Positions 25,431 through 37,449 of a DNA stretch of 64,000 nt are shown here, in pieces. Below the pieces are notes generated by a model. That model saw only the letters and a program-made list of their open reading frames with translations. It had not been told where the DNA came from and searched no databases. Position 1 is the first letter of the stretch; every line of letters starts with the position of its first letter. The position numbers and the translations under genes are program-made. The DNA comes from Treponema sp. CETP13 (GTDB lineage Bacteria; Spirochaetota; Spirochaetia; Treponematales; Treponemataceae): positions 62,001-126,000 of the forward strand of contig MLPZ01000011.1 in the NCBI GenBank assembly GCA_001885315.1. The letters are read 5' to 3'.

Positions 25431-26609
25431 TTATGCGAACAAAGCACTTACCAAAGATGGAACAGCAATAATGTTTCCAATAGCCCCACCTATACTCGAC
25501 AAAAGGAACACAAGCAGCACATGTGTTATTCTATTGTGATAAATACCCTTTAAAGATCCTGCGTCTTCAACGAGATGTTCCATATCTGATACTTTAGGTT
25601 TTTTTACCCAAGCTTGAACAATACCAGTAAAAAGCCCAACTGCAATAAAAGGATTTAAGGTTCCCAAAGGGGCACCTAGAAAACCACTTATAATTGTTAA
25701 TGGATTTCCTAACGCAATTATACAACCTAAAGCAGCCAGAGATCCATTCCATAAAAGCCAGTGCCAAATCATATTTAATGACATCTGGGCTCCGCCTGTA
25801 AAAAACCCTGCAACAATTAACCCAATAATTATAATGGGAAATGCCGCACCAAATATTTTACTACCAACCCCTTTGGGAGGTACAGACTCAATTTCAGTTG
25901 TATTGCTAGATTTTTTTTCTGTAGCTATTTCATTTATCCATCGTTCAACTCCAGGTAAATGCCCAGCTCCCAAAACAGCAACAACTTTGTTTCCTTCACA
26001 TTTCCAAATATGACTTGCCAAATACTGGTCTCTCTCATCAATAAGAACTGTTTTTACACCAGGTAAATAGTCAGCAAGTTCATTCATCATAGTATCCATT
26101 TCATTGCTACTTTTTAAGTTTTCAATTTGATCGCTAGAAATTTCTTCCTTTTCAAATGCACTAGAAAACAGTAATGCCAACAATTTACATTTACCCAAAA
26201 AAGAGTTTTTTGCCCATGCACGTTGTAACGTAACTTTAATAGGACGGTCTACCATAACAGCAGGAATTTTAAGTTCATTGGCAACTGCAATAGAACTTTT
26301 CATTTCATCTCCAGGTTTTACCCCAACATCGACACCCATTCGTTTTTGAAAAGAAGATAAAACAAGATTTGCCATCATTAAAAACCCCTGTCCTTCTTTT
26401 AAAACCTTAATAATATCAAGATTTTTCCAAGAATCTGGGTCTTGCATACTTTTTAGTCTCTGTTCATCTAGCTCAATAGCAACACAATCAGGCTTTTCAT
26501 TTCTTATTGAAGCAGTGGCCTCATTTATGCTTTCATTAGAAATATGTGCTGTTCCAATAAGAATTATCTCTCGTCCATTTAGTTCTAAACGCTTTTCAGT
26601 CTGTGACAT
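25431..26609 (-). CDS. TraB/PrgY-family membrane protein
   Basis: The 392-residue product carries the TraB domain in residues 1-235, with the family's GTAHIS motif near residue 18 and IAVANEL plus VVAVLGAGHLPG further on. Several C-terminal membrane helices follow (about 255-392). The family (TraB, PrgY, GumN relatives, TIKI) is thought to contain metalloproteases or peptide-signal inhibitors; in enterococci PrgY and TraB block self-signalling by a pheromone. No pheromone system is visible here. It follows the TPR lipoprotein by 13 bases. Confidence 0.85.
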   Translation of the reverse strand: MSQTEKRLELNGREIILIGTAHISNESINEATASIRNEKPDCVAIELDEQRLKSMQDPDSWKNLDIIKVLKEGQGFLMMANLVLSSFQKRMGVDVGVKPGDEMKSSIAVANELKIPAVMVDRPIKVTLQRAWAKNSFLGKCKLLALLFSSAFEKEEISSDQIENLKSSNEMDTMMNELADYLPGVKTVLIDERDQYLASHIWKCEGNKVVAVLGAGHLPGVERWINEIATEKKSSNTTEIESVPPKGVGSKIFGAAFPIIIIGLIVAGFFTGGAQMSLNMIWHWLLWNGSLAALGCIIALGNPLTIISGFLGAPLGTLNPFIAVGLFTGIVQAWVKKPKVSDMEHLVEDAGSLKGIYHNRITHVLLVFLLSSIGGAIGNIIAVPSLVSALFA

Positions 26610-26622
26610 TACGTATCCTTTT

Positions 26623-28029
26623 TTAGTTTTCTTTTTTTTCTATAGCCCATTCAGCTAAGCGATATTCAAAAAACATAGGAGCTTCCATCTCTGTTACTTG
26701 AATATAATATTTTTGGGCCAAACTTTGATGCCCTTGTAACTCGTACCATAAACCTAAATAAAAGTAATATTTACCTCGTTTAGAAACACTTTCCAACTTA
26801 GAAACTTTTAATAAAACAGATTCGTCCCCAAGATTGTCCCAGTACATTCTAACCACCATATATTCGACAGAAGAACGATCAAGAGTTTTTAGTACTTTAC
26901 TTAAAAATTCCTTACATTCGGCCTTTTTATCCTGTTTTAGATAAGCTACAGCAACCATAAGAGCATATGAAACATTTGTTGGTCTTTGTTCATAAGCTTT
27001 ATAAAACCCAGTTCTTACACTTTCCCAATCTTTTTCTCCCCAAGCAAGAACTCCCATAGCTTCATACGCAAAATAATATTCAGGTTTATACTCTACTATT
27101 TTTTTATAATCATTTAGGGCTTCTTTTCTATTATCTTCTTGATCATTTAAACCTGCACGGTAAACATACGCAAGAAAATACGTAGGATCAATTTCTACAG
27201 CATGGTTTAATGCATCGATAGCATCATCAAACTTCCCTTTATGTCGATAATAATTCCCTAAATCAACCCAATGATAATAATAGCCTGGCTCAGATTCAAC
27301 CGCTTTTTTTGCACATTCAATTGCTTTATCATATTTTTTGTCTTCACTGTATAATTTGCCTAACCCAGCCCATGCCATATCATTTTCTGGATTAATATCT
27401 ACTATTTTTTGAAACGTAGAATTAGCCATATCAAGATCATCTAAAAAATAACAAGCTTGTCCAAAACCTAGAAGAGCTTGCTCATTGTCTGGTTCGGCTG
27501 TTATAGCACGCAAATAATAGCTCCGAGCTAATTCATACTTTTTTAGAAGCATTTGCGAAGCACCTTTTTCTGTGTTTGCAGTCGGATTATTAATATCTTT
27601 TTCTAAAATTTTAGCAAGAATTTTTTGCTTTTTTATTGTGTCTCCTTTTTCCTTTGCAACAAACATTTCAAGATTTAAAAAATCAAGATTTTCCGAATCT
27701 TGAGAGACAAGCTCATTGACAATTTCTTCTGCCTCATGATATTTTCCCATAGAAAGCAATAACGAAGCATGTAAATAGTTAAGATCTGTATCATTAGAAA
27801 ATTCTTTTGGGATTGTATCAAAACTTGTTAAAGCTTTCTCTAACTCATTATTGTTTACGTAAATACCCAACTGATCTATAAAACCCTCTTTTGTAAAAGG
27901 TTCTTCTTTAACCTTCTCTGTAGTAATTTGCTGTTTATTTTCTACAGGATTTGTTACACATGATGTTATGCACAAAAGGGCAATAAGAATAACAACATAA
28001 CACAATTTTTTAATTTTTCTATTTTCCAT
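26623..28029 (-). CDS. TPR-repeat lipoprotein
   Basis: The 468-residue product has a lipoprotein signal with lipobox ITSC (about residues 21-24) followed by a chain of tetratricopeptide repeats over most of its length, for example PDNEQALLGFGQACYFLDDL and PTYFLAYVYRAGLNDQEDN. TPR domains are protein-binding scaffolds. It probably sits on a membrane facing the periplasm. Its partner is unknown; co-transcription with the TraB-family protein suggests a shared task. Confidence 0.85.
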   Translation of the reverse strand: MENRKIKKLCYVVILIALLCITSCVTNPVENKQQITTEKVKEEPFTKEGFIDQLGIYVNNNELEKALTSFDTIPKEFSNDTDLNYLHASLLLSMGKYHEAEEIVNELVSQDSENLDFLNLEMFVAKEKGDTIKKQKILAKILEKDINNPTANTEKGASQMLLKKYELARSYYLRAITAEPDNEQALLGFGQACYFLDDLDMANSTFQKIVDINPENDMAWAGLGKLYSEDKKYDKAIECAKKAVESEPGYYYHWVDLGNYYRHKGKFDDAIDALNHAVEIDPTYFLAYVYRAGLNDQEDNRKEALNDYKKIVEYKPEYYFAYEAMGVLAWGEKDWESVRTGFYKAYEQRPTNVSYALMVAVAYLKQDKKAECKEFLSKVLKTLDRSSVEYMVVRMYWDNLGDESVLLKVSKLESVSKRGKYYFYLGLWYELQGHQSLAQKYYIQVTEMEAPMFFEYRLAEWAIEKKEN

Positions 28030-28071
28030 TTACTCTCCCGTTTATTTATTCAAAGGATTTTGTTAACATAG

Positions 28072-28100
28072 TTGATTTTATCACAATCATTAGCTACACT
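28072..28100 (+). promoter_or_regulatory. Candidate promoter with start of transcription next to an ATG
   Basis: TTGATT (28072-28077) and TACACT (28095-28100) are 17 bases apart. The predicted +1 falls about two bases before the ATG at 28109, and there is no ribosome binding site, so the mRNA may be leaderless. Confidence 0.4.
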
Positions 28101-28108
28101 AACAAACA

Positions 28109-29821
28109 ATGAACAAGTATCAAATAAGAAAATTTTTTGGACTTTTTGTCCTTTATGGTCTTTTATTTCTCGGCATTTTTATGGTCCAATTTAGAAATGA
28201 ATCCTCAATTTCTAAAAAATTTGGAGACATAAAACTCCATTTATCAGAAACTCTTACCAAAGAAAATGAAACTCTATTAAAGAATAATTTTCAAGTAAGC
28301 ACAAGAGGAATTACATTATTTTCTAATGATATAAATCCTGTTAAACTGACGTATGTAAATGGAAATGTATCCACATTAAAAATAGTAAATTGGACACAAG
28401 ATTCCGACTCTTCTTTTACAATTGATTTTTCTGAAGATACTCACTTGTCATTTTCTTCTTCTACTTCAGACCATGAAATTTTATCTATATCAGCGAAACT
28501 TCCCAATAATGCTCACAGAATAACTATATCATATAAATTAGGTGGTGCATATACAGTTACAGATTACAAAGCCTCTTACGCTTTAATAAATTCTCAAAAA
28601 AACGACTATATTTTAAAAGCACAAAACATAACTGCAAACACCATATCTTTAACAAACCCTATGAATATAGCAATGTTTGGAGATTTTATAAAATCAGAAA
28701 CATTTTCATTTGACGACATTCTTGATTATCCTCAAGCAACAGATAAAGCACGAGAAGCTTCGATAGAAAAACTTAGAACAACAATTCTTGCAACTTATCC
28801 AGTACAAAAAGACACTATTACTTCTGAAATTGCAATAGCAGCATGGATTGCCGAAAAAAGTAGACAAGGTGACTACCAAGAAGCAATAGATACCGTTCCT
28901 CAAACATTTAAAGACAGTTCCACTCGTACATATCTTACAACCACTTATTTTAATACATTACAAGAAATGAATAAATCTTTAGACATGCAAATTGAAAACA
29001 TCTCTTTTAGCATGCAAAATTCTATATCAAAAAAATCGCTCGATGTTTTTGAATTAGATTCATTTCCCGATTTTCTACTTACAAAAACAACTGCAAGTAT
29101 AAATAAGATTTTGGCTGTTCCAAGCAACATGGGAAATTTTGCTCCAACAGTTTCACAAGCTGCAGGGATTCTTCATGTATACAATGAATTAAAGACAAAA
29201 AAACCAGAATCTATAGCATTATTAGAAAACGTCTTACAGCTTTGTGTAGAAAAAATTGAAAGTAACTGTATCCCAACTAATACCTTATTAACTATTGTTG
29301 AAAATGATGAAAAAGTTAATACTTTAATAACCTTAAAGGCAGGCTATGAATTACTACGGTTAGGACAAATAAAACAACAAACACGACTAATCGCTGCAGG
29401 TAATTTATTAATAAATTCCGTTCTTACAACAAGTATAAATCCCTCTATGAGAACACTTGGAGAAGAATACAAAATTCTCTGTGCAAGTACAAATCCATAT
29501 TACCCACATATACAAGTGCTAAAAGAAACTGATACGGATATAATATGGGCTTGGACTTGTGCCCAGAAGCTCACCTATAATGACGAAACAAATGACATAC
29601 ATACAATTGACTGCACCTTTCCAAAAGGCACTAGTCATTACATGATTATGCATGGAATAAAACAATTTAGTTCAATCGAAATTTATGGATTAAAATACCG
29701 CACCGATCCACGCTTTGAATGGTACAACTCTTCTGGGTATGCTGTAGACACTGAGAAAGACATTTTGTTTCTTAAATTTAGGCAAAAAGCTGATACAGAA
29801 AAAGTTCGCTTATTCTACTAG
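28109..29821 (+). CDS. Membrane-anchored protein of unknown function (570 aa)
   Basis: I do not recognise this protein. It has one N-terminal membrane helix (about residues 9-27) and a large remainder without obvious repeats or catalytic motifs. Residues 45-190 look beta-rich (ITLFSNDINPVKLTYVNGNV), and the middle is more helical. The topology suggests an inner-membrane anchor with an extracytoplasmic domain. It stands alone on the plus strand between two minus-strand genes and overlaps the stop of the next gene by four bases. The ATG has no ribosome binding site. Confidence 0.7.
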   Translation: MNKYQIRKFFGLFVLYGLLFLGIFMVQFRNESSISKKFGDIKLHLSETLTKENETLLKNNFQVSTRGITLFSNDINPVKLTYVNGNVSTLKIVNWTQDSDSSFTIDFSEDTHLSFSSSTSDHEILSISAKLPNNAHRITISYKLGGAYTVTDYKASYALINSQKNDYILKAQNITANTISLTNPMNIAMFGDFIKSETFSFDDILDYPQATDKAREASIEKLRTTILATYPVQKDTITSEIAIAAWIAEKSRQGDYQEAIDTVPQTFKDSSTRTYLTTTYFNTLQEMNKSLDMQIENISFSMQNSISKKSLDVFELDSFPDFLLTKTTASINKILAVPSNMGNFAPTVSQAAGILHVYNELKTKKPESIALLENVLQLCVEKIESNCIPTNTLLTIVENDEKVNTLITLKAGYELLRLGQIKQQTRLIAAGNLLINSVLTTSINPSMRTLGEEYKILCASTNPYYPHIQVLKETDTDIIWAWTCAQKLTYNDETNDIHTIDCTFPKGTSHYMIMHGIKQFSSIEIYGLKYRTDPRFEWYNSSGYAVDTEKDILFLKFRQKADTEKVRLFY

Positions 29822-32163
29822 AAGAAAGCCGAATACGACTCAAGGAGCTTATCAAGTTCCTCTTGATTATCGGCAACAAGACTCGCAGCAAAATAGAGGC
29901 CAACAGCAGATTCTGTTGTAAGTCGTCCCATAGGAGTTGCCCCTTCTCTCCAAACTCGTCGACTTGTCGAATAACCCGAAAAATCTATTTCACTTTCCTG
30001 TTGTGAAGTGCAATAAAAATGGCACCCTTTTTTACGCCCGTTCTGTAGCAAAGGTTTTATAGAATAATCACTCTCACGCATACTACCGGTACCTGTTTCA
30101 TATAATTCCATAATAATATGAGTTAGGCCATTATCTATCAATGGTAAATAGTTCGAGGATTTAAGCCCTGGATATACACGACAAACAAGCATTTTATTGG
30201 CTGCTTCCCGTAAAATTTGTTTCATAACAAACTCATCAGGACTTTCTAGCCCCGCAAACATTGAATATAAAGTATCAGAACCAGTAAAAACAAGATTTTC
30301 CATATTCCAATTGCAAAATCCACCTTCTCTAGGTTTTATAAATTTTAAGTTTAAAGGAGAAAACACTTTCCCGTCAAAAACAACATACACTCCATTGGTT
30401 TCTTTTACTGCTAAGGTAACGGCTTTATCAATACTACATTTTGGCATATCAGATGCTTCTGGAGTATCATGAGCCGAAGCAAGTATTATAGGAACTTTTG
30501 CATCTGCAAAAAGCCAAAACAATAAAGCAGCTGTATAGGGCAAAGTATCTAGTCCATATGCAACGATGATACCACTTGCAGTTCCGGTTTCGATACATTC
30601 TGTAATTTCTTTTATAAGTGCTGCCCAATCTCCCGGTTCTATTTCTTCACTCCATAAATGATTAACTTGCACAACTTTTGTTCGAACATCGCTATCGTTA
30701 TTTTCAAGGAGTTTGTTTAGAACCTCAACTTCTCCGGTTTTGGCAGATCCATCTTGGTTTAAGCGACCACAAATTGCCCCGCCCATCGAAAGTACATAAA
30801 CAAGTTTTATATTCAATTCACGTTTTAAAAGTCGCTTAACAGTCTGCGGAACAGCCATGCCACCAGTTAGATGCATTACTTGTCCAGTTAGAAACTCGAT
30901 TGGCGACATTTCACCGTCGCGAAGTTTTTCTGTCTCTTTAGGGTTTTCTGCTATTACTTTTTTTACAATAGGTAACAATTCATCTTCACTAGCTATTTGC
31001 GTCCAGTTATTTATTTTTATTATGGTGAGAGGATCTTTCCCCGTTTTATACACAGATTGCATTAATTGACGTGCAATACCATTATGTATTCTACCATTTT
31101 TTAATAACTGCAATATTTGTGCAAAATAGGCAGGTGTCAGTGGAGATTGCGAAAATCCAGTAAAATTATTTTCGGTAATACGAGAAAACTCAGAAGAAAT
31201 CCAATGTGCTGCATCCATAGAATCTCCACCTGCAGCAATTGTTGCCTCAAAATAATCAGCTCTATCTTTGTCATCACAAATATATTCAGCACGAGTCCTA
31301 GAAAGACCATACACCTTGCTTAAACGTCGACGTCTAGCTTCGGGCAATTCAAATGGTTTTTGAAAATCCATTTCTGTTTCTGGATATTTAAATACTACAT
31401 GAGCTTTAACTTTTTCAAACCGAGTAAGATGAGGATCTCTAAGTTTGTACTGCTCTGTGCTATTTTGACGTTCGTTCCACAATCGACTTTCGGAAACAAC
31501 CTTTTTGCCTGTTCTAAGAATCTCTTCTTGACGATTTAATTCGATATTTATTGCTTTTCGAACAAAGTTAAAAGAATTTAAATTTCGTAATTTTACATAA
31601 TAGTCAGGTGGAATAGGATATTTTGCCAACGCTACATATGCATTACAACGAATCATTGTTTCTATAGGGGCAACTGTAATAAACCCCAAATATTGGACAA
31701 GACGTCTTAATTCATTTAAGAAAAACTCTGCTTCTTCTCCAAGCTCAAAATCAGCCCCTGTACGTATACGTATACTTGGACACCCCGCATTTGAATAATC
31801 CATAAAAGCTTTGTTATTTGAACGAGTAAGTCGACCAGTATCTTCTTCTATGCGTATTTCTTCGATATGTACTGTTTTTTTTCTGCGATGAAACTCTATG
31901 TCTAAAAAGCCATTTGTTGCAACTTTAACAGAATAACCTGAAATATCACTTCCCTCTGGAATATCTATACTCCCAGTAAGATGTTCAATTTCTAATTCTT
32001 CTAACTTCTTACAATTAAAAGCATTAGAAAGCATGCATAAAATATTCATTAATTCTGAATCTATAGTTATTTGAGTGCCGTTTTCTGTGGAAGTTTCGAT
32101 AAAAGCCTTTTTGTGTGGTAAAACAAGAATTCGTGTCTCTAAATACACATTGGACTGGTACAT
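29818..32163 (-). CDS. GatB/GatE-like protein fused to an asparaginase-like domain, probably catalytically altered
   Basis: Residues 1-455 of this 781-residue protein resemble the tRNA amidotransferase subunit GatB: FMDYSNAGCPSIRIRTGADF, KLRNLNSFNFVRKAINIELN, then a YqeY-like tail domain. Residues 456-781 resemble type I asparaginase or GatD (VLSMGGAICG, VAYGLDTLPYTAALL). In asparaginases and GatD these read TGGTI and HGTDT; here the nucleophile threonines are Met460 and Leu538. The GatB part also lacks the usual FYPDLPKGYQ motif and is short at the N-terminus. Archaeal GatD and GatE are separate proteins. The frame is intact with a strong promoter, so it is kept by selection; its role is unknown. 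Confidence 0.75.
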   Translation of the reverse strand: MYQSNVYLETRILVLPHKKAFIETSTENGTQITIDSELMNILCMLSNAFNCKKLEELEIEHLTGSIDIPEGSDISGYSVKVATNGFLDIEFHRRKKTVHIEEIRIEEDTGRLTRSNNKAFMDYSNAGCPSIRIRTGADFELGEEAEFFLNELRRLVQYLGFITVAPIETMIRCNAYVALAKYPIPPDYYVKLRNLNSFNFVRKAINIELNRQEEILRTGKKVVSESRLWNERQNSTEQYKLRDPHLTRFEKVKAHVVFKYPETEMDFQKPFELPEARRRRLSKVYGLSRTRAEYICDDKDRADYFEATIAAGGDSMDAAHWISSEFSRITENNFTGFSQSPLTPAYFAQILQLLKNGRIHNGIARQLMQSVYKTGKDPLTIIKINNWTQIASEDELLPIVKKVIAENPKETEKLRDGEMSPIEFLTGQVMHLTGGMAVPQTVKRLLKRELNIKLVYVLSMGGAICGRLNQDGSAKTGEVEVLNKLLENNDSDVRTKVVQVNHLWSEEIEPGDWAALIKEITECIETGTASGIIVAYGLDTLPYTAALLFWLFADAKVPIILASAHDTPEASDMPKCSIDKAVTLAVKETNGVYVVFDGKVFSPLNLKFIKPREGGFCNWNMENLVFTGSDTLYSMFAGLESPDEFVMKQILREAANKMLVCRVYPGLKSSNYLPLIDNGLTHIIMELYETGTGSMRESDYSIKPLLQNGRKKGCHFYCTSQQESEIDFSGYSTSRRVWREGATPMGRLTTESAVGLYFAASLVADNQEELDKLLESYSAFF

Positions 32164-32183
32164 AGCAACTCCTTATAGCATTT

Positions 32184-32212
32184 ATTATATTTTACATAGA
32201 AATTCTTATCAA
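32184..32212 (-). promoter_or_regulatory. Promoter of the GatB/asparaginase-like fusion gene
   Basis: On the minus strand TTGATA (32207-32212) and TATAAT (32184-32189) are exactly 17 bases apart. An AAGGAG site and the ATG follow within 26 bases. Confidence 0.85.
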
Positions 32213-32303: not shown

Positions 32304-33746
32304 GTGAATAAGCACGACTTTCCTAAAATCCATTTTTACGACCAGGATTTTGTAGATATTTATGATAAAACGTGGGCTTGGTTACAGGATTTTTGGCGTG
32401 ACCCCTTAAGTGGGGCAAAAACAACTGATGGATATTTTATGTACCATACATCACAAGATGACGATACGGAACTATCTATAGTTGATCAACTTGAAAGTAC
32501 ATTCTCATCCTTTTTTCTTGTATATTCAAACCGAAATTATCCAGCTCATCAAAACTTGGATTATTTATACTCTCGACAAGAAGAAAATGGCGCTATCCGT
32601 TGGAAATACAATGCAAAAACAAATGAACCAATTGTTTCTAAAGACAATCCAGAAGGAGTAGGTCTTCCCCTTTTTGCATGGGCTGAGTTTAACCTATATC
32701 ATAAGTCTGCAAATAAACGGCGTGTAAAAGAAATTATGCCAATACTGCAAAAATATATGACATGGCTTAGCAATACTTTTAAAGATGAAAACGGTATGTA
32801 TAAAGCACCCTATTGTGCAGGAGAAATGTATAATTCACCTCGTGAAGGAGCAGTATTTACTGTAGATTTTAACTCGGCACTAGCTGTAAATGCATTATAT
32901 ATGTCTGCACTAGGTGATATTCTTAATGATAAAGAATTAAGTTTTCAATATAAACGTCTCTATTTTTCTCTAAAAACTCGTATCAATTCTTTTATGTGGA
33001 ATCAAACAACAGGAATTTATCACGACTTAGACGAAAATGCTATACAACTTCCTGTTAAAACTATAGCTGGATTTTGGCCAATGCTTGCAGAAATACCAAA
33101 CGAAGACAAAGCAAATCTCATGGTAAACTTATTGACTGATCCTCATTATTTTGGAACAGAACACCCTTTCCCTTCTCTTTCTGCAGATGAAAAACAATTT
33201 AGCGAAAAAGGTCATGGCTATTGTGGTAGCGTTTTTCCAATTTGCAATTTTATGGTTATAAAAGGTCTTGAAAAATACGAACATTGGGATTTAGCTCGCG
33301 AAAGTGCAATAAAACATTTGTATTTTATACTTGAAGCTATGTTCCCAGGAACTTCACGACAAGGCGATTTATACGAGGCATATTTACCATGCAAAGAAGG
33401 AATCGCCACAATGGACGAAGTTGGAACTCCTCCACGGACTCGATACCTTACATCTACCGGACTTTCGACAATTGCTCTTATGATAGAAAATATAATAGGA
33501 CTTGAAATAAGCTTACCAAGAAAAACAGTAGATTGGATAATTCCAAACTTGGAAAGCATGGGGATTGAGAATCTCTCACTTAAACGAAACCTTATTACAA
33601 TTTTGTCTAACAAAAGTAACCGAGGTTGGGAAATCCAAATGGAAAGTGAAAAATTATACTATTTTACCATTAATATTTTAGGTCAAAAGAAAAAGACATT
33701 ACCAATCCCATCAGGTAAATGTTCTATGCTAATAGACAAACTATAG
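32304..33746 (+). CDS. Trehalase/MGH1-like (alpha/alpha)6 glycoside hydrolase
   Basis: The 480-residue product starts at GTG with AAGGAG five bases upstream. It resembles the (alpha/alpha)6 barrel glycosidases of the GH37/GH63/mannosylglycerate-hydrolase group (TTDGYFMYHTSQDDDT, VFTVDFNSALAVNALY, MWNQTTGIYHDLD, TIAGFWPMLAEIP). No signal peptide is seen, so it acts in the cytoplasm. Substrate is uncertain: trehalose, a glucosyl or mannosyl solute, or glycogen-derived oligosaccharide. It precedes ppx/gppA and ppk1 in an operon, which links a carbohydrate store with polyphosphate. Confidence 0.78.
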   Translation: MNKHDFPKIHFYDQDFVDIYDKTWAWLQDFWRDPLSGAKTTDGYFMYHTSQDDDTELSIVDQLESTFSSFFLVYSNRNYPAHQNLDYLYSRQEENGAIRWKYNAKTNEPIVSKDNPEGVGLPLFAWAEFNLYHKSANKRRVKEIMPILQKYMTWLSNTFKDENGMYKAPYCAGEMYNSPREGAVFTVDFNSALAVNALYMSALGDILNDKELSFQYKRLYFSLKTRINSFMWNQTTGIYHDLDENAIQLPVKTIAGFWPMLAEIPNEDKANLMVNLLTDPHYFGTEHPFPSLSADEKQFSEKGHGYCGSVFPICNFMVIKGLEKYEHWDLARESAIKHLYFILEAMFPGTSRQGDLYEAYLPCKEGIATMDEVGTPPRTRYLTSTGLSTIALMIENIIGLEISLPRKTVDWIIPNLESMGIENLSLKRNLITILSNKSNRGWEIQMESEKLYYFTINILGQKKKTLPIPSGKCSMLIDKL

Positions 33747-33767: not shown

Positions 33768-35294
33768 ATGAAAACATTAGAAGCCGTTATAGAAATAGGT
33801 TCTACTGCTATACGATTAATGGTATTTCAAGTTGATTCTACTGGAACTTGGAATACTATCGATAAAGCAGAATTACCAGTCGCTCTTGGCCGTGATGTTT
33901 TTACAAACGGTGATATATCACGAGATACTCTACTTAAATGTACCAGAATTCTTCTTCGTTTTTCTGAACTTTTAGACGGCTGGAATATTGATAGATTTCA
34001 TACAGCTATTATTGCTACAAGCGCTGTTAGAGAAGCTTCAAATCGCGACATGTTCATTGATCGCATTTACGTAAAAACTAATTATAAAGTTAAAGTAATC
34101 GATGGGATTGAAGAAAACCGTCTTATGTATCTAAGTACAGTAGAAGTTTTACGAAAAGATGCTCCTCAACTTATGAAACAAAACGCCCTAATCTTCGAAA
34201 TTGGTGGTGGTTCAACAGAACTAATGCTTTTACAACATGGCAAAATGGTAGCTGCTCACAGTTTATATCTTGGAACTGTAATAATAAACCAATATCAAAA
34301 AAGAATACTTGGATCAGTTTCTGACTCTCGCAGATTTATATCTGATTATATTAAAACTGCAGGCATAAATATGAGTTCAGAAATTAATTTTTCTCATATA
34401 AAACTATGTATCACACTGGGCACTGAAACACTTATTGCTGCACATGAAGTAGGAGAAAAGATCGGAGAGCGAATTTGGTCGATTTCTAAAAATAAATTTG
34501 TTTCCTTTGTAAACAGCATACAAGAATATTCAATAGAGGAATGTCTTGCACGTTTTCATCTTTCATACAATGAAGCCAATTCACTACAAGTAGGCTTATT
34601 AACTTACAAATTATTTATGCAGCTTACAGCAGCAGAAAAAATGATTGTAACAGATGTGTCGGTTAGAGAAGGGTTACTTATAAACAGAATTTCAGCTCCA
34701 GATGATATTCAAACAATGTTTTGCTCACAGATTATTGCTTCGGCACGAAGCATAGGCCGTAAATACAATTTTGATGAACCTCACGCCCAATATGTACATG
34801 ATGCAGCTATAAAAATTTATGATTCGATAAAAAACGAATTAGTTTTACCTGCTTCGGCACGCATTCTACTTGAAGTTTCGGCTTACCTACATGATATCGG
34901 AGTCTTTATTAGAACAAACAATCATAATTTACATAGCCAGTATATAATAGCACATTCTGATATATTCGGATTAAGTAAAGACGACATTCACATTGTCTCG
35001 CTTGTTGCACGATATCATCGAGGCAAAATAAGATACCAAGATGACGAATCATACAGAAGCCTTTCAAGATTAGAACGAATGCAAGTTCTAAAATTAGCAG
35101 CTATTCTAAGAGTAGCCGATGCTTTAGACCGCGGTCACTCTCAGCATATAAAAGATTTTACAATTGAACAACAAGAAGACAAACTTATATTTCATATAAA
35201 AGAGATTCACAATGCTAATCTAGAAAAATTAGCTCTTACAGAAAAATCAGATTTATTTGAGTCTGTTTTTAGCTACAGTATAGTTTTGTTATAA
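33768..35294 (+). CDS. Ppx/GppA exopolyphosphatase-family protein with C-terminal HD domain
   Basis: The 508-residue product has the ASKHA-fold Ppx/GppA phosphatase in residues 1-310 (VIEIGSTAIRLMVFQ, ATSAVREASNR, IFEIGGGSTELML). An HD-type domain follows (ILLEVSAYLHDIGVFI, VARYHRG). This domain pair is found in polyphosphatases and in ppGpp-hydrolysing GppA. Lying directly before ppk1 it most likely degrades polyphosphate, opposing Ppk1. The ATG lacks a clear ribosome binding site, so it may depend on read-through translation from the gene before it. Confidence 0.9.
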   Translation: MKTLEAVIEIGSTAIRLMVFQVDSTGTWNTIDKAELPVALGRDVFTNGDISRDTLLKCTRILLRFSELLDGWNIDRFHTAIIATSAVREASNRDMFIDRIYVKTNYKVKVIDGIEENRLMYLSTVEVLRKDAPQLMKQNALIFEIGGGSTELMLLQHGKMVAAHSLYLGTVIINQYQKRILGSVSDSRRFISDYIKTAGINMSSEINFSHIKLCITLGTETLIAAHEVGEKIGERIWSISKNKFVSFVNSIQEYSIEECLARFHLSYNEANSLQVGLLTYKLFMQLTAAEKMIVTDVSVREGLLINRISAPDDIQTMFCSQIIASARSIGRKYNFDEPHAQYVHDAAIKIYDSIKNELVLPASARILLEVSAYLHDIGVFIRTNNHNLHSQYIIAHSDIFGLSKDDIHIVSLVARYHRGKIRYQDDESYRSLSRLERMQVLKLAAILRVADALDRGHSQHIKDFTIEQQEDKLIFHIKEIHNANLEKLALTEKSDLFESVFSYSIVLL

Positions 35295-35304
35295 GGTGTA
35301 GTTT

Positions 35305-37449
35305 ATGAAAAACGAAAATATAAAGTATATTAACAGAGAACTCTCATGGATAGAGTTTAACGCACGAGTTCTGCATCAAGCGGAGCAACCAGAAGTCCCT
35401 CTTTTAGAAAGACTTAAATTCCTTGCTATTGTTTCATCTAATTTTGACGAGTTTTTTATGGTACGAGTTGCTGGTTTAAAACGAGTAAAAGACACAGATT
35501 TAGATTGGAAAGATATTACAGGGCTTACCGCATGTGAACAACTAAAAGCCATCTCAGAAAGGGTTCATACACTTGTAGATCGGCAAGATAAAATTCTTAC
35601 TAATTCAATTTTACCAGAAATGGAAAAAGAGGGTCTCGTCTATATTCCTTGGAATAAATATTCACCTACAGAAAAACTGTTTTTAGAAAATAAATTTACC
35701 GAACAGATTTTTCCTCTTTTAACACCGTTAAGAACAGACACCCCAGCCGAATTACCTCATTTATCCAATTTAAAATTGCATGTAGCATTTACTCTTAAAC
35801 CAATTATTGACACATCAACACTTCCCGAAGCCTTTAAGAGTCATTCTGAAAATTCGCCTCTAGCACTCGTACAAATACCAAACAGCTTAGATCGAATAGT
35901 ATTACTCCCAACTACAGGTAATATACAAAGATTTACTTTTCTCGATGATATTATTATTCAATTTGGGACACGACTTTTCCCAGGATATAGCATTGAACAA
36001 TCTCTCATTTTTCGAGTAACAAATGATGCCGCTTTTTCTGTAGACGAAGAAAGAGATACAGACTTTATCGAAGCAATGAAAGAAGTTCTTCAAGCTCGAA
36101 AAACTTCTTATCCTGTACGTTTTATTTGTAATAATACAAGCCCAGAAATTCGTGATATCCTTGTAAAAAAAATGAATCTTGAAGCCCAAGATATATATCA
36201 AATTAATGGATTATTAGATATTTCTTCTTTTGCTAAAATTACATCACTTAACGGATATGAAAACCTACGCTTTCCTAAATGGAAACATTATAAACATATC
36301 GATTTAAACCCAAATACATCTCTTTGGGACAAAATAAAATCACAAGATATATTACTTCATGTTCCCTATGAAAGCTTCGATATTGTTGTCCAATTTGTAA
36401 ATCAGGCAGCAAACGACCCTCAAGTTCTTGCAATTAAAATGACTCTTTATAGAACAAGTGGCGACTCCCCTATTATAAAAGCATTAGAAAGAGCTGCACG
36501 AAACGGCAAACAAGTAACTGTTTTTGTAGAACTTAAAGCACGATTTGACGAAAAACAAAATATGGGTTGGGCCTCTCTGTTACAAGATGCCGGGGTTATA
36601 GTTGTTCATGGAATAGCAAACATGAAAGTACATGCAAAAATGCTTCTTGTTGTACGTCGTGAAGAACAAGGCATTGTGCGCTACGTACATATGTCGACAG
36701 GGAATTATAACGATGCTACAGCAAAAAGTTATGTTGATATGTCACTATTTACAACTAACCCGCAAATAGGAAACGATGCCTCATTATTTTTTAATATGAT
36801 TTCAGGATACTCCGCTATTCAGTCAATGCAACAATTGGCTATTGCACCAATTAATTTAAAATCAAAATTGCTCGAAATGATAGAGCGAGAAATTCAACAC
36901 TCTACCCCAGAAACTCCAGGTCTCATTATGGCAAAAATGAACAGCCTGGGCGAAAAAGATATAATAAATGCACTATACAAGGCAAGCAATCATAATGTTC
37001 GTATATTATTAAACATTAGAGGAATTTGCATGCTTGTTCCTGGAGTTGCAGGTCAAAGTGAAAATATTACAGTTTGCAGTATTGTTGGCCGGTATTTAGA
37101 GCACACACGTATTTTGTTTTTTCAAAATGGTGGTAACGAAGAAATATACCTTTCAAGCGCAGATTGGCTTAATAGAAATCTTAATCGCCGTGTTGAATTA
37201 ATGTTCCCTATTTTACAAAAAAACTTATTTGAAGATATTAAAAAAACTCTTAATCTTTATTTCTCTGATAATTGCTGTACTCACTACCTGACAAAAACAG
37301 GAGACTGGATACCGCGAACTCCAACCAATTTAGAAGAAAAGCGTAACGTTCAACAATATCTTAATAATAAATACAAAAAAATAAACGAAACAGAAAACAA
37401 AGAAATACCAACAGAATTTTTTGTTCGCCGCGCCGATTCTCAAAAATAA
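35305..37449 (+). CDS. ppk1: Polyphosphate kinase 1
   Basis: The 714-residue product is a full-length Ppk1, which makes polyphosphate from ATP reversibly. The N-terminal INRELSWIEFNARVLHQA and SSNFDEFFMVRVAG motifs are present, as are the catalytic-domain motifs KMTLYRTSGDSPI, KVHAKMLLVVRR (with the His of the phospho-histidine site region) and HMSTGNYNDATAKSYVDMSLFT. It follows ppx by 10 bases with AAGGTG upstream. A hairpin follows the stop. Confidence 0.97.
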   Translation: MKNENIKYINRELSWIEFNARVLHQAEQPEVPLLERLKFLAIVSSNFDEFFMVRVAGLKRVKDTDLDWKDITGLTACEQLKAISERVHTLVDRQDKILTNSILPEMEKEGLVYIPWNKYSPTEKLFLENKFTEQIFPLLTPLRTDTPAELPHLSNLKLHVAFTLKPIIDTSTLPEAFKSHSENSPLALVQIPNSLDRIVLLPTTGNIQRFTFLDDIIIQFGTRLFPGYSIEQSLIFRVTNDAAFSVDEERDTDFIEAMKEVLQARKTSYPVRFICNNTSPEIRDILVKKMNLEAQDIYQINGLLDISSFAKITSLNGYENLRFPKWKHYKHIDLNPNTSLWDKIKSQDILLHVPYESFDIVVQFVNQAANDPQVLAIKMTLYRTSGDSPIIKALERAARNGKQVTVFVELKARFDEKQNMGWASLLQDAGVIVVHGIANMKVHAKMLLVVRREEQGIVRYVHMSTGNYNDATAKSYVDMSLFTTNPQIGNDASLFFNMISGYSAIQSMQQLAIAPINLKSKLLEMIEREIQHSTPETPGLIMAKMNSLGEKDIINALYKASNHNVRILLNIRGICMLVPGVAGQSENITVCSIVGRYLEHTRILFFQNGGNEEIYLSSADWLNRNLNRRVELMFPILQKNLFEDIKKTLNLYFSDNCCTHYLTKTGDWIPRTPTNLEEKRNVQQYLNNKYKKINETENKEIPTEFFVRRADSQK

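Follow-up and report, generated by a model that had tools for sequence, protein, structure and literature searches.

Genomes that carry asparaginyl- and glutaminyl-tRNA synthetases (AsnRS and GlnRS) together with GatCAB and a second aspartyl-tRNA synthetase (AspRS), as described for Deinococcus and Thermus, make asparagine on tRNA (PMC4206432). In the GatB subunit of yeast, Mg2+ was assigned to residues H36, E156 and E186, and the contacts with ATP include E34 and T189 (PMC4027206). In the asparaginases, Thr12 (EcAII numbering) has been argued to be the primary nucleophile (PMC12951835), and the activity of human ASPG depends on Thr19, the Thr12 equivalent (PMC5443537). Here we describe a gene that joins relatives of these two protein families in one chain, found in a 64,000-nucleotide stretch of Treponema sp. 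CETP13 (contig MLPZ01000011.1, positions 62,001 to 126,000), referred to below as the window. Its GatB half and its asparaginase half have both lost catalytic residues, and the fusion is conserved in many treponemes; in a neighbouring order of the class the GatB half of the same fusion has kept its motifs. We favour, at a probability of roughly 45%, the reading that the whole protein would be a non-catalytic sensor or regulator with an amide amino acid and tRNA as its ligands.

The fusion gene and its domains

29818..32163, minus strand: whole gene, GatB-like/asparaginase-like fusion of 781 aa (open reading frame; homologues matching in length and layout from Treponemataceae and two further families of the order)
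32184..32212, minus strand: sigma-70-like promoter, TTGATA-17-TATAAT, 11/12 (motif match)
31294..32163, minus strand: GatB cradle-like domain, residues 1-290, with R11 and R132 at Mg2+ ligands and E9, E107 and T135 retained (Pfam, structure match, column statistics, residues of PMC4027206)
30814..31293, minus strand: GatB helical and YqeY (tRNA-binding) tail, residues 291-450, with nearly all GatB-conserved columns present (PF02637, column statistics)
29821..30813, minus strand: asparaginase/GatD-like domain, residues 451-781 (PF00710, structure match)

Residue numbers are those of the 781-aa window protein. An earlier sequence-only reading of this stretch had described an intact frame behind a consensus promoter, and both statements stand: the 781 codons contain zero internal stops, the promoter matches at 11 of 12 positions (32212-32184), and a Shine-Dalgarno sequence, AAGGAG at 32169-32174, lies 5 bases ahead of the ATG. 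Above their cut-offs, Pfam models placed GatB_N at residues 29-240 (3e-29), GatB_Yqey (PF02637) at 303-450 (6e-34) and Asparaginase (PF00710) at 455-605 (8e-20; 71.6 bits versus a cut-off of 22.5); Asparaginase_C was a weak match. An AlphaFold model built with 41 relatives had a mean predicted local distance difference test (pLDDT) of 86 but a predicted TM-score (pTM) of 0.59, indicating a good prediction of each domain but not of how the domains are arranged relative to one another. In structure comparisons the first 451 residues resembled GatB crystal structures (Z about 35), and residues 452-776 resembled class-1 asparaginases (Z 29, root-mean-square deviation 2.5 A over 299 residues).

The GatB half has a rebuilt cradle

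The first half had been taken for a relative of archaeal GatE. This ancestry was rejected on the NCBIfam scores, which favour bacterial GatB (2e-74) over GatE (1e-16); the gatE model NF003107 reached 60.2 versus a cut-off of 456, with its best stretch at just residues 272-451. The protein also stays below the gatB cut-offs (TIGR00133, 230.5 versus 314.8; NF004012, 250.9 versus 338), its gatB scores spanning 219-251, and the FYPD..YQ motif is not present in its GatB half, as had been noted.

To locate the changes, 96 columns that are nearly invariant in working GatBs were compared in 24 Treponematales fusion copies. Thirty-three columns are kept and 37 lost; the losses fall in the cradle, and the helical/YqeY tail is nearly intact. 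Several cradle changes are fixed: H to R at 11 (23/24, one gap), H to R at 104 (24/24), E to R at 132 (23/24), and D to N at 174, E to K at 191 and K to R at 193 (each 24/24). The equivalents of the Mg2+ ligands (yeast H36/E156/E186; by motif, S. aureus H12/E125/E150) are R11, E107 and R132 in the window, so that the H to R11 and E to R132 changes, which the sequence-only reading had missed, remove the metal site. By motif matching, two of the three ligands are Arg in the Treponematales copies examined, with E9, E107 and T135 remaining. From the uniformity of these substitutions we infer a rebuilt, metal-free site in the GatB cradle rather than random decay.

The asparaginase half lacks its nucleophile

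30775..30777, minus strand: codon 463 (Ala), the nucleophilic Thr12 site in EcAII numbering (alignment to 1wls Thr11; family tally)
30784..30786, minus strand: codon 460 (Met), not the nucleophile site; Met also in the P. furiosus and P. horikoshii asparaginases (alignment)
30550..30552, minus strand: codon 538 (Leu), at the Thr89 site; Thr in 50/55 relatives (alignment, tally)

The nucleophile of class-1 asparaginases is the threonine that follows the GG pair (Thr11 in the P. horikoshii asparaginase, 1wls). As both 1wls and the P. furiosus enzyme, 4q0m, read GMGGTI, and phmmer alignments put this threonine at residue 463, an Ala in the window, the earlier assignment of the nucleophile to Met460 was wrong. 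The structural alignment to BlAsnase-T13A, which pairs residue 452 with 2, likewise pairs 463 with 13 provided that it is ungapped. The second replacement had been correctly placed: the window reads YGLDT for HGTDT, with Tyr at 536 and Leu at 538. Both catalytic threonines are thus replaced, as had been claimed, in the form of A463 and L538. The Thr89-Asp90-Lys162 triad, represented by L538, D539 and K607, is incomplete here and complete as T-D-K in most relatives. The NCBIfam gatD model TIGR02153 scored 76.4 versus a cut-off of 324.

Among 55 distinct Treponematales fusions, residue 463 is A in 35, T in 10, S in 8 and V in 2, and in a tree built from the asparaginase half this site changes identity at least 5 times. 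The remainder of the pocket varies little: S505 and E506 are invariant, 538 is T in 50, 539 is D in 51, and 607 is K in 45, R in 7 and H in 3. No equivalent of the catalytic Tyr25 was evident in the alignment of these 55 fusions. The top structural neighbours of the asparaginase half include BlAsnase-T13A with L-Asn, and gpASNase T19A with Asn was also matched.

A fused GatB with intact motifs in the neighbouring order

A full-length fusion was found in 26 of 46 genomes of the neighbouring order, and no second GatB was found in any of the fusion-bearing ones. There the GatB half has intact GLEIH, FYPD..YQ, HLEED and PLLEIVTEP motifs and its scores of 547-632 bits exceed the gatB thresholds set for TIGR00133, NF004012 and NF004014. 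The gene is part of a gatC-gatA-gatB~asparaginase-aspS operon, and divergently ahead of it, in 15 of 17 stretches, lies the glycoside hydrolase gene that also adjoins the treponeme fusion. The asparaginase nucleophile site is Ala in 25/25 of these copies, with the T-D-(K/R) set retained. The Ser/Lys motifs of the adjacent GatA are intact, so ammonia need not come from the asparaginase half. In one genome (G523) a frame change immediately ahead of the GGSSGGS amidase signature divides gatA (L100, 10188-11623) in two; it may be a real single-base loss or a sequence error.

Three genomes of the neighbouring order (L166, L167 and L125) have an unfused GatB in the same operon and at the same locus. 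The asparaginase domain was probably lost in them, since the fused GatB of G523 groups with two of the three unfused ones. The best PDB match of the G523 asparaginase domain is P. abyssi GatD. Short frames of 166-262 aa that hold the asparaginase N-terminal domain only were also seen in the neighbouring order (L147, L148, L150 and L152) and at G254:C1:1048773-1049222; short-chain asparaginases of the RrA type fall in this size range (PMC10949315).

The shared locus and synteny and the shared extra domain point to descent from the working fusion. The window gene is most likely a retained paralogue, one that would derive from a GatB~GatD-like operon fusion and have been left at the old locus after the loss of gatC, gatA and aspS. 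The sequence-only reading had envisaged archaeal GatD and GatE subunits joined in one gene; the ancestry is instead most likely that of a bacterial GatB~GatD-like fusion, still found in the gatCAB-aspS operon of the neighbouring order.

Distribution, selection and locus in Treponematales

Counting contig-end fragments and the broken copies of two genomes (G003 and G017), the fusion is present in 74 of 245 Treponemataceae genomes and 12 of 20 genera, among them Candidatus Treponema caballi (L033) and Treponema sp. UBA1793 (L035), and two further families of the order have it as well. The sequence-only reading had suggested a search for the fusion in other spirochaetes, and it was found both in Treponematales and in the neighbouring order; of the two residues singled out for comparison, 538 is indeed the second-triad site and 460 is irrelevant, the nucleophile site being 463. 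The frame is intact across many genera at 41-58% identity, and the ratio of nonsynonymous to synonymous substitution rates (dN/dS) between closely related pairs is 0.02-0.10 in both halves. On this codon-level evidence the fusion is not a relic drifting without constraint. In G003 and G017 it is frameshifted or split; two broken treponeme copies, each in several frames, lie beside the usual glycoside hydrolase gene (L049, 7094-9485; L048, 6785-9147).

32304..33746, plus strand: divergent MGH1-like glycoside hydrolase gene, conserved neighbour of the fusion here and of gatCAB-aspS in the neighbouring order (Pfam, synteny)

The fusion gene is divergent beside this hydrolase in all but two of 44 stretches, a few of which are duplicated. 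At 11 of 16 fusion-free loci the hydrolase lies next to the gene that the fusion usually precedes, and nothing of the fusion is left in between; tblastn detected no remnants of it in fusion-free genomes (best E 0.96). A functional tie between the two genes was considered and rejected: the hydrolase occurs in 128 of 128 good Treponemataceae genomes and the fusion is often absent, so that their adjacency looks like an inherited locus and not an obligate partnership. Neither gatC nor gatA lies beside the window gene, which stands alone. An ordinary gatC-gatA-gatB set, whose existence elsewhere in the genome had been left as a question, was looked for and found on another contig.

Two further groups of neighbouring genes were recorded. 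The hydrolase gene is the first of a conserved Treponemataceae trio; next come a phosphatase gene of the ppx/gppA type (33768-35294) and a polyphosphate kinase gene (35305-37449). On the other side, 25431-29821 adjoins the fusion and encodes a 570-aa protein without a Pfam match, a TPR protein and a TraB/PrgY-like membrane protein; this cluster stays together in most relatives, whether the fusion is present or not.

tRNA-amidation context

AsnRS was found in 78 of 78 genomes tested. GlnRS is absent from nearly all Treponemataceae tested and rarely missing from the genomes of other families; the ordinary GatCAB of Treponemataceae should therefore make Gln-tRNA. The simplest history has this ordinary gatCAB doing the essential work in treponemes, as judged from gene content. 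Three genomes with a fused GatB (G523, G574 and G575) have no AsnA or AsnB above cut-off. A missing AsnRS, GlnRS or asparagine synthetase was rejected as an explanation for the presence of the fusion, as AsnRS is universal in the set and AsnA and AsnB vary independently of the fusion in Treponemataceae.

Discussion

In the sensor reading, the asparaginase half would act independently of hydrolysis and bind Asn, Gln or a similar ligand. Independence of hydrolysis is suggested by the Ala at the nucleophile site in all fusions with a working GatB and in most paralogues, and binding without turnover is favoured by analogy, Ala463 being the substitution that traps intact Asn in BlAsnase T13A and in guinea-pig asparaginase T19A. 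The conserved remainder of the pocket (S505, E506, T538, D539 and K/R607), common to fused GatBs and Treponematales fusions, supports the same idea. The GatB half would bind tRNA, with a nucleotide perhaps held by the arginines instead of Mg2+, and the whole protein might have an accessory role, without catalysis, in sensing or regulating the supply of amide amino acids or tRNA. The sequence-only reading had proposed a new function, and the disabled sites combined with purifying selection support one other than amidotransfer. Binding of tRNA or an amide metabolite is the leading idea; nothing points to the new chemistry that the reading had offered as an alternative. A fuller version can be sketched, although we regard it as doubtful: in the neighbouring order, the GatB of a tRNA-dependent Asn complex would sense Asn or Gln through an asparaginase domain with a natural nucleophile-to-Ala change and feed back on the complex, and treponemes, after losing gatC, gatA and aspS, would have kept the sensor as a stand-alone regulator binding tRNA and amino acid, with Mg2+ replaced by arginines.

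Several observations weigh against the sensor reading. In 17 of the 55 paralogues T or S at 463 occurs together with T538, D539 and K607, and some of these proteins may act as amide hydrolases. The window copy belongs to the most changed ones: besides the nucleophile it has lost H536 and T538 of HGTDT. This speaks against an amino-acid pocket being conserved in this species, where binding may be weaker or different. In the GatB tree the root effectively falls on the long treponeme branch, and the branching order does not fix descent. The gene is also dispensable, being missing from about 70% of the family genomes and broken in two.

One alternative is a GatB-like partner that docks on GatA-GatC; the resulting inactive or modified complex would damp or redirect the Gln-tRNA synthesis carried out by the ordinary GatCAB. 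In its favour are the preserved GatB fold (Z about 35), an ancestor that presumably had a GatA and GatC of its own to work with, and a genome that encodes ordinary GatC and GatA and lacks GlnRS, so that GatCAB should be essential; we nevertheless consider such a partner unlikely, as the fusion gene stands away from gatCA and its cradle has lost 37 of 96 GatB-invariant columns. Continued enzyme activity is also rather unlikely. In this view the protein would be an amidohydrolase, or a transferase whose rebuilt site needs no metal; catalysis would run through Ser/Thr463 in some species and by a different mechanism in those with Ala. The 17 relatives with a full residue set and the fixed, non-random cradle substitutions would fit an enzyme; the repeated switching of the nucleophile site, its Ala in all fused GatBs, A463 and L538 in the window copy and the lack of an evident Tyr25 equivalent would not.

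Class-1 asparaginases and GatD form dimers, and the asparaginase half might accordingly be mainly an oligomerisation module that dimerises a tRNA-binding protein and senses no ligand. The fold is complete, and fold residues are conserved while the nucleophile varies; the conservation of S505, E506, T538, D539 and K/R607, needless for mere dimerisation, makes this improbable. That the gene is a decaying, functionless relic is very improbable: its patchy occurrence, with clean loss at the locus, and the copies frameshifted or split in G003 and G017 would suit decay, but the low dN/dS, the intact frame in diverged genera and the invariant rebuilt site would not.

GatB, GatD and the asparaginases are known; no earlier description of the fusion or of the pseudoenzyme branch was found in a literature search, whose coverage of subscription papers was thin. 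The fusion family appears to have a recoverable history: at one locus, a working enzyme subunit of one order is matched by a conserved pseudoenzyme of the next, so that both the loss of catalysis and the acquisition of a different role can be tested directly. Should the asparaginase half indeed sense Asn, the indirect tRNA-amidation pathway would have an amino-acid sensor built into it, a feature of which we know no description.

Comparison with known systems

With bacterial GatB the window protein shares the layout of cradle, helical domain and YqeY tail, 24-26% identity to solved GatBs, the ATP-contact residues E9 and T135, and the tail itself. It differs in having Arg at two of three Mg2+ ligands, no FYPD..YQ motif, NCBIfam scores below cut-off, an extra asparaginase domain and no adjacent gatC or gatA. 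With archaeal GatD, the glutaminase subunit of GatDE, and with type I L-asparaginases it has the fold in common and, in most relatives, HGTDT and the Lys; the SE(E/D)..P..W motif is shared with GatD. Unlike these proteins, it has Ala for the nucleophilic Thr, as do all the fusions with a working GatB, and the domain is fused behind GatB instead of forming a separate subunit. A genomic parallel is the GatCAB with a second AspRS of Deinococcus and Thermus (PMC4206432): the gatC-gatA-gatB~asparaginase-aspS operon of the neighbouring order likewise coexists with AsnRS and usually with GlnRS, and three of the genomes with a fused GatB are without AsnA/AsnB. In contrast to that system, the GatB here carries a nucleophile-less asparaginase domain, and Treponematales retain just the GatB fusion at the locus.

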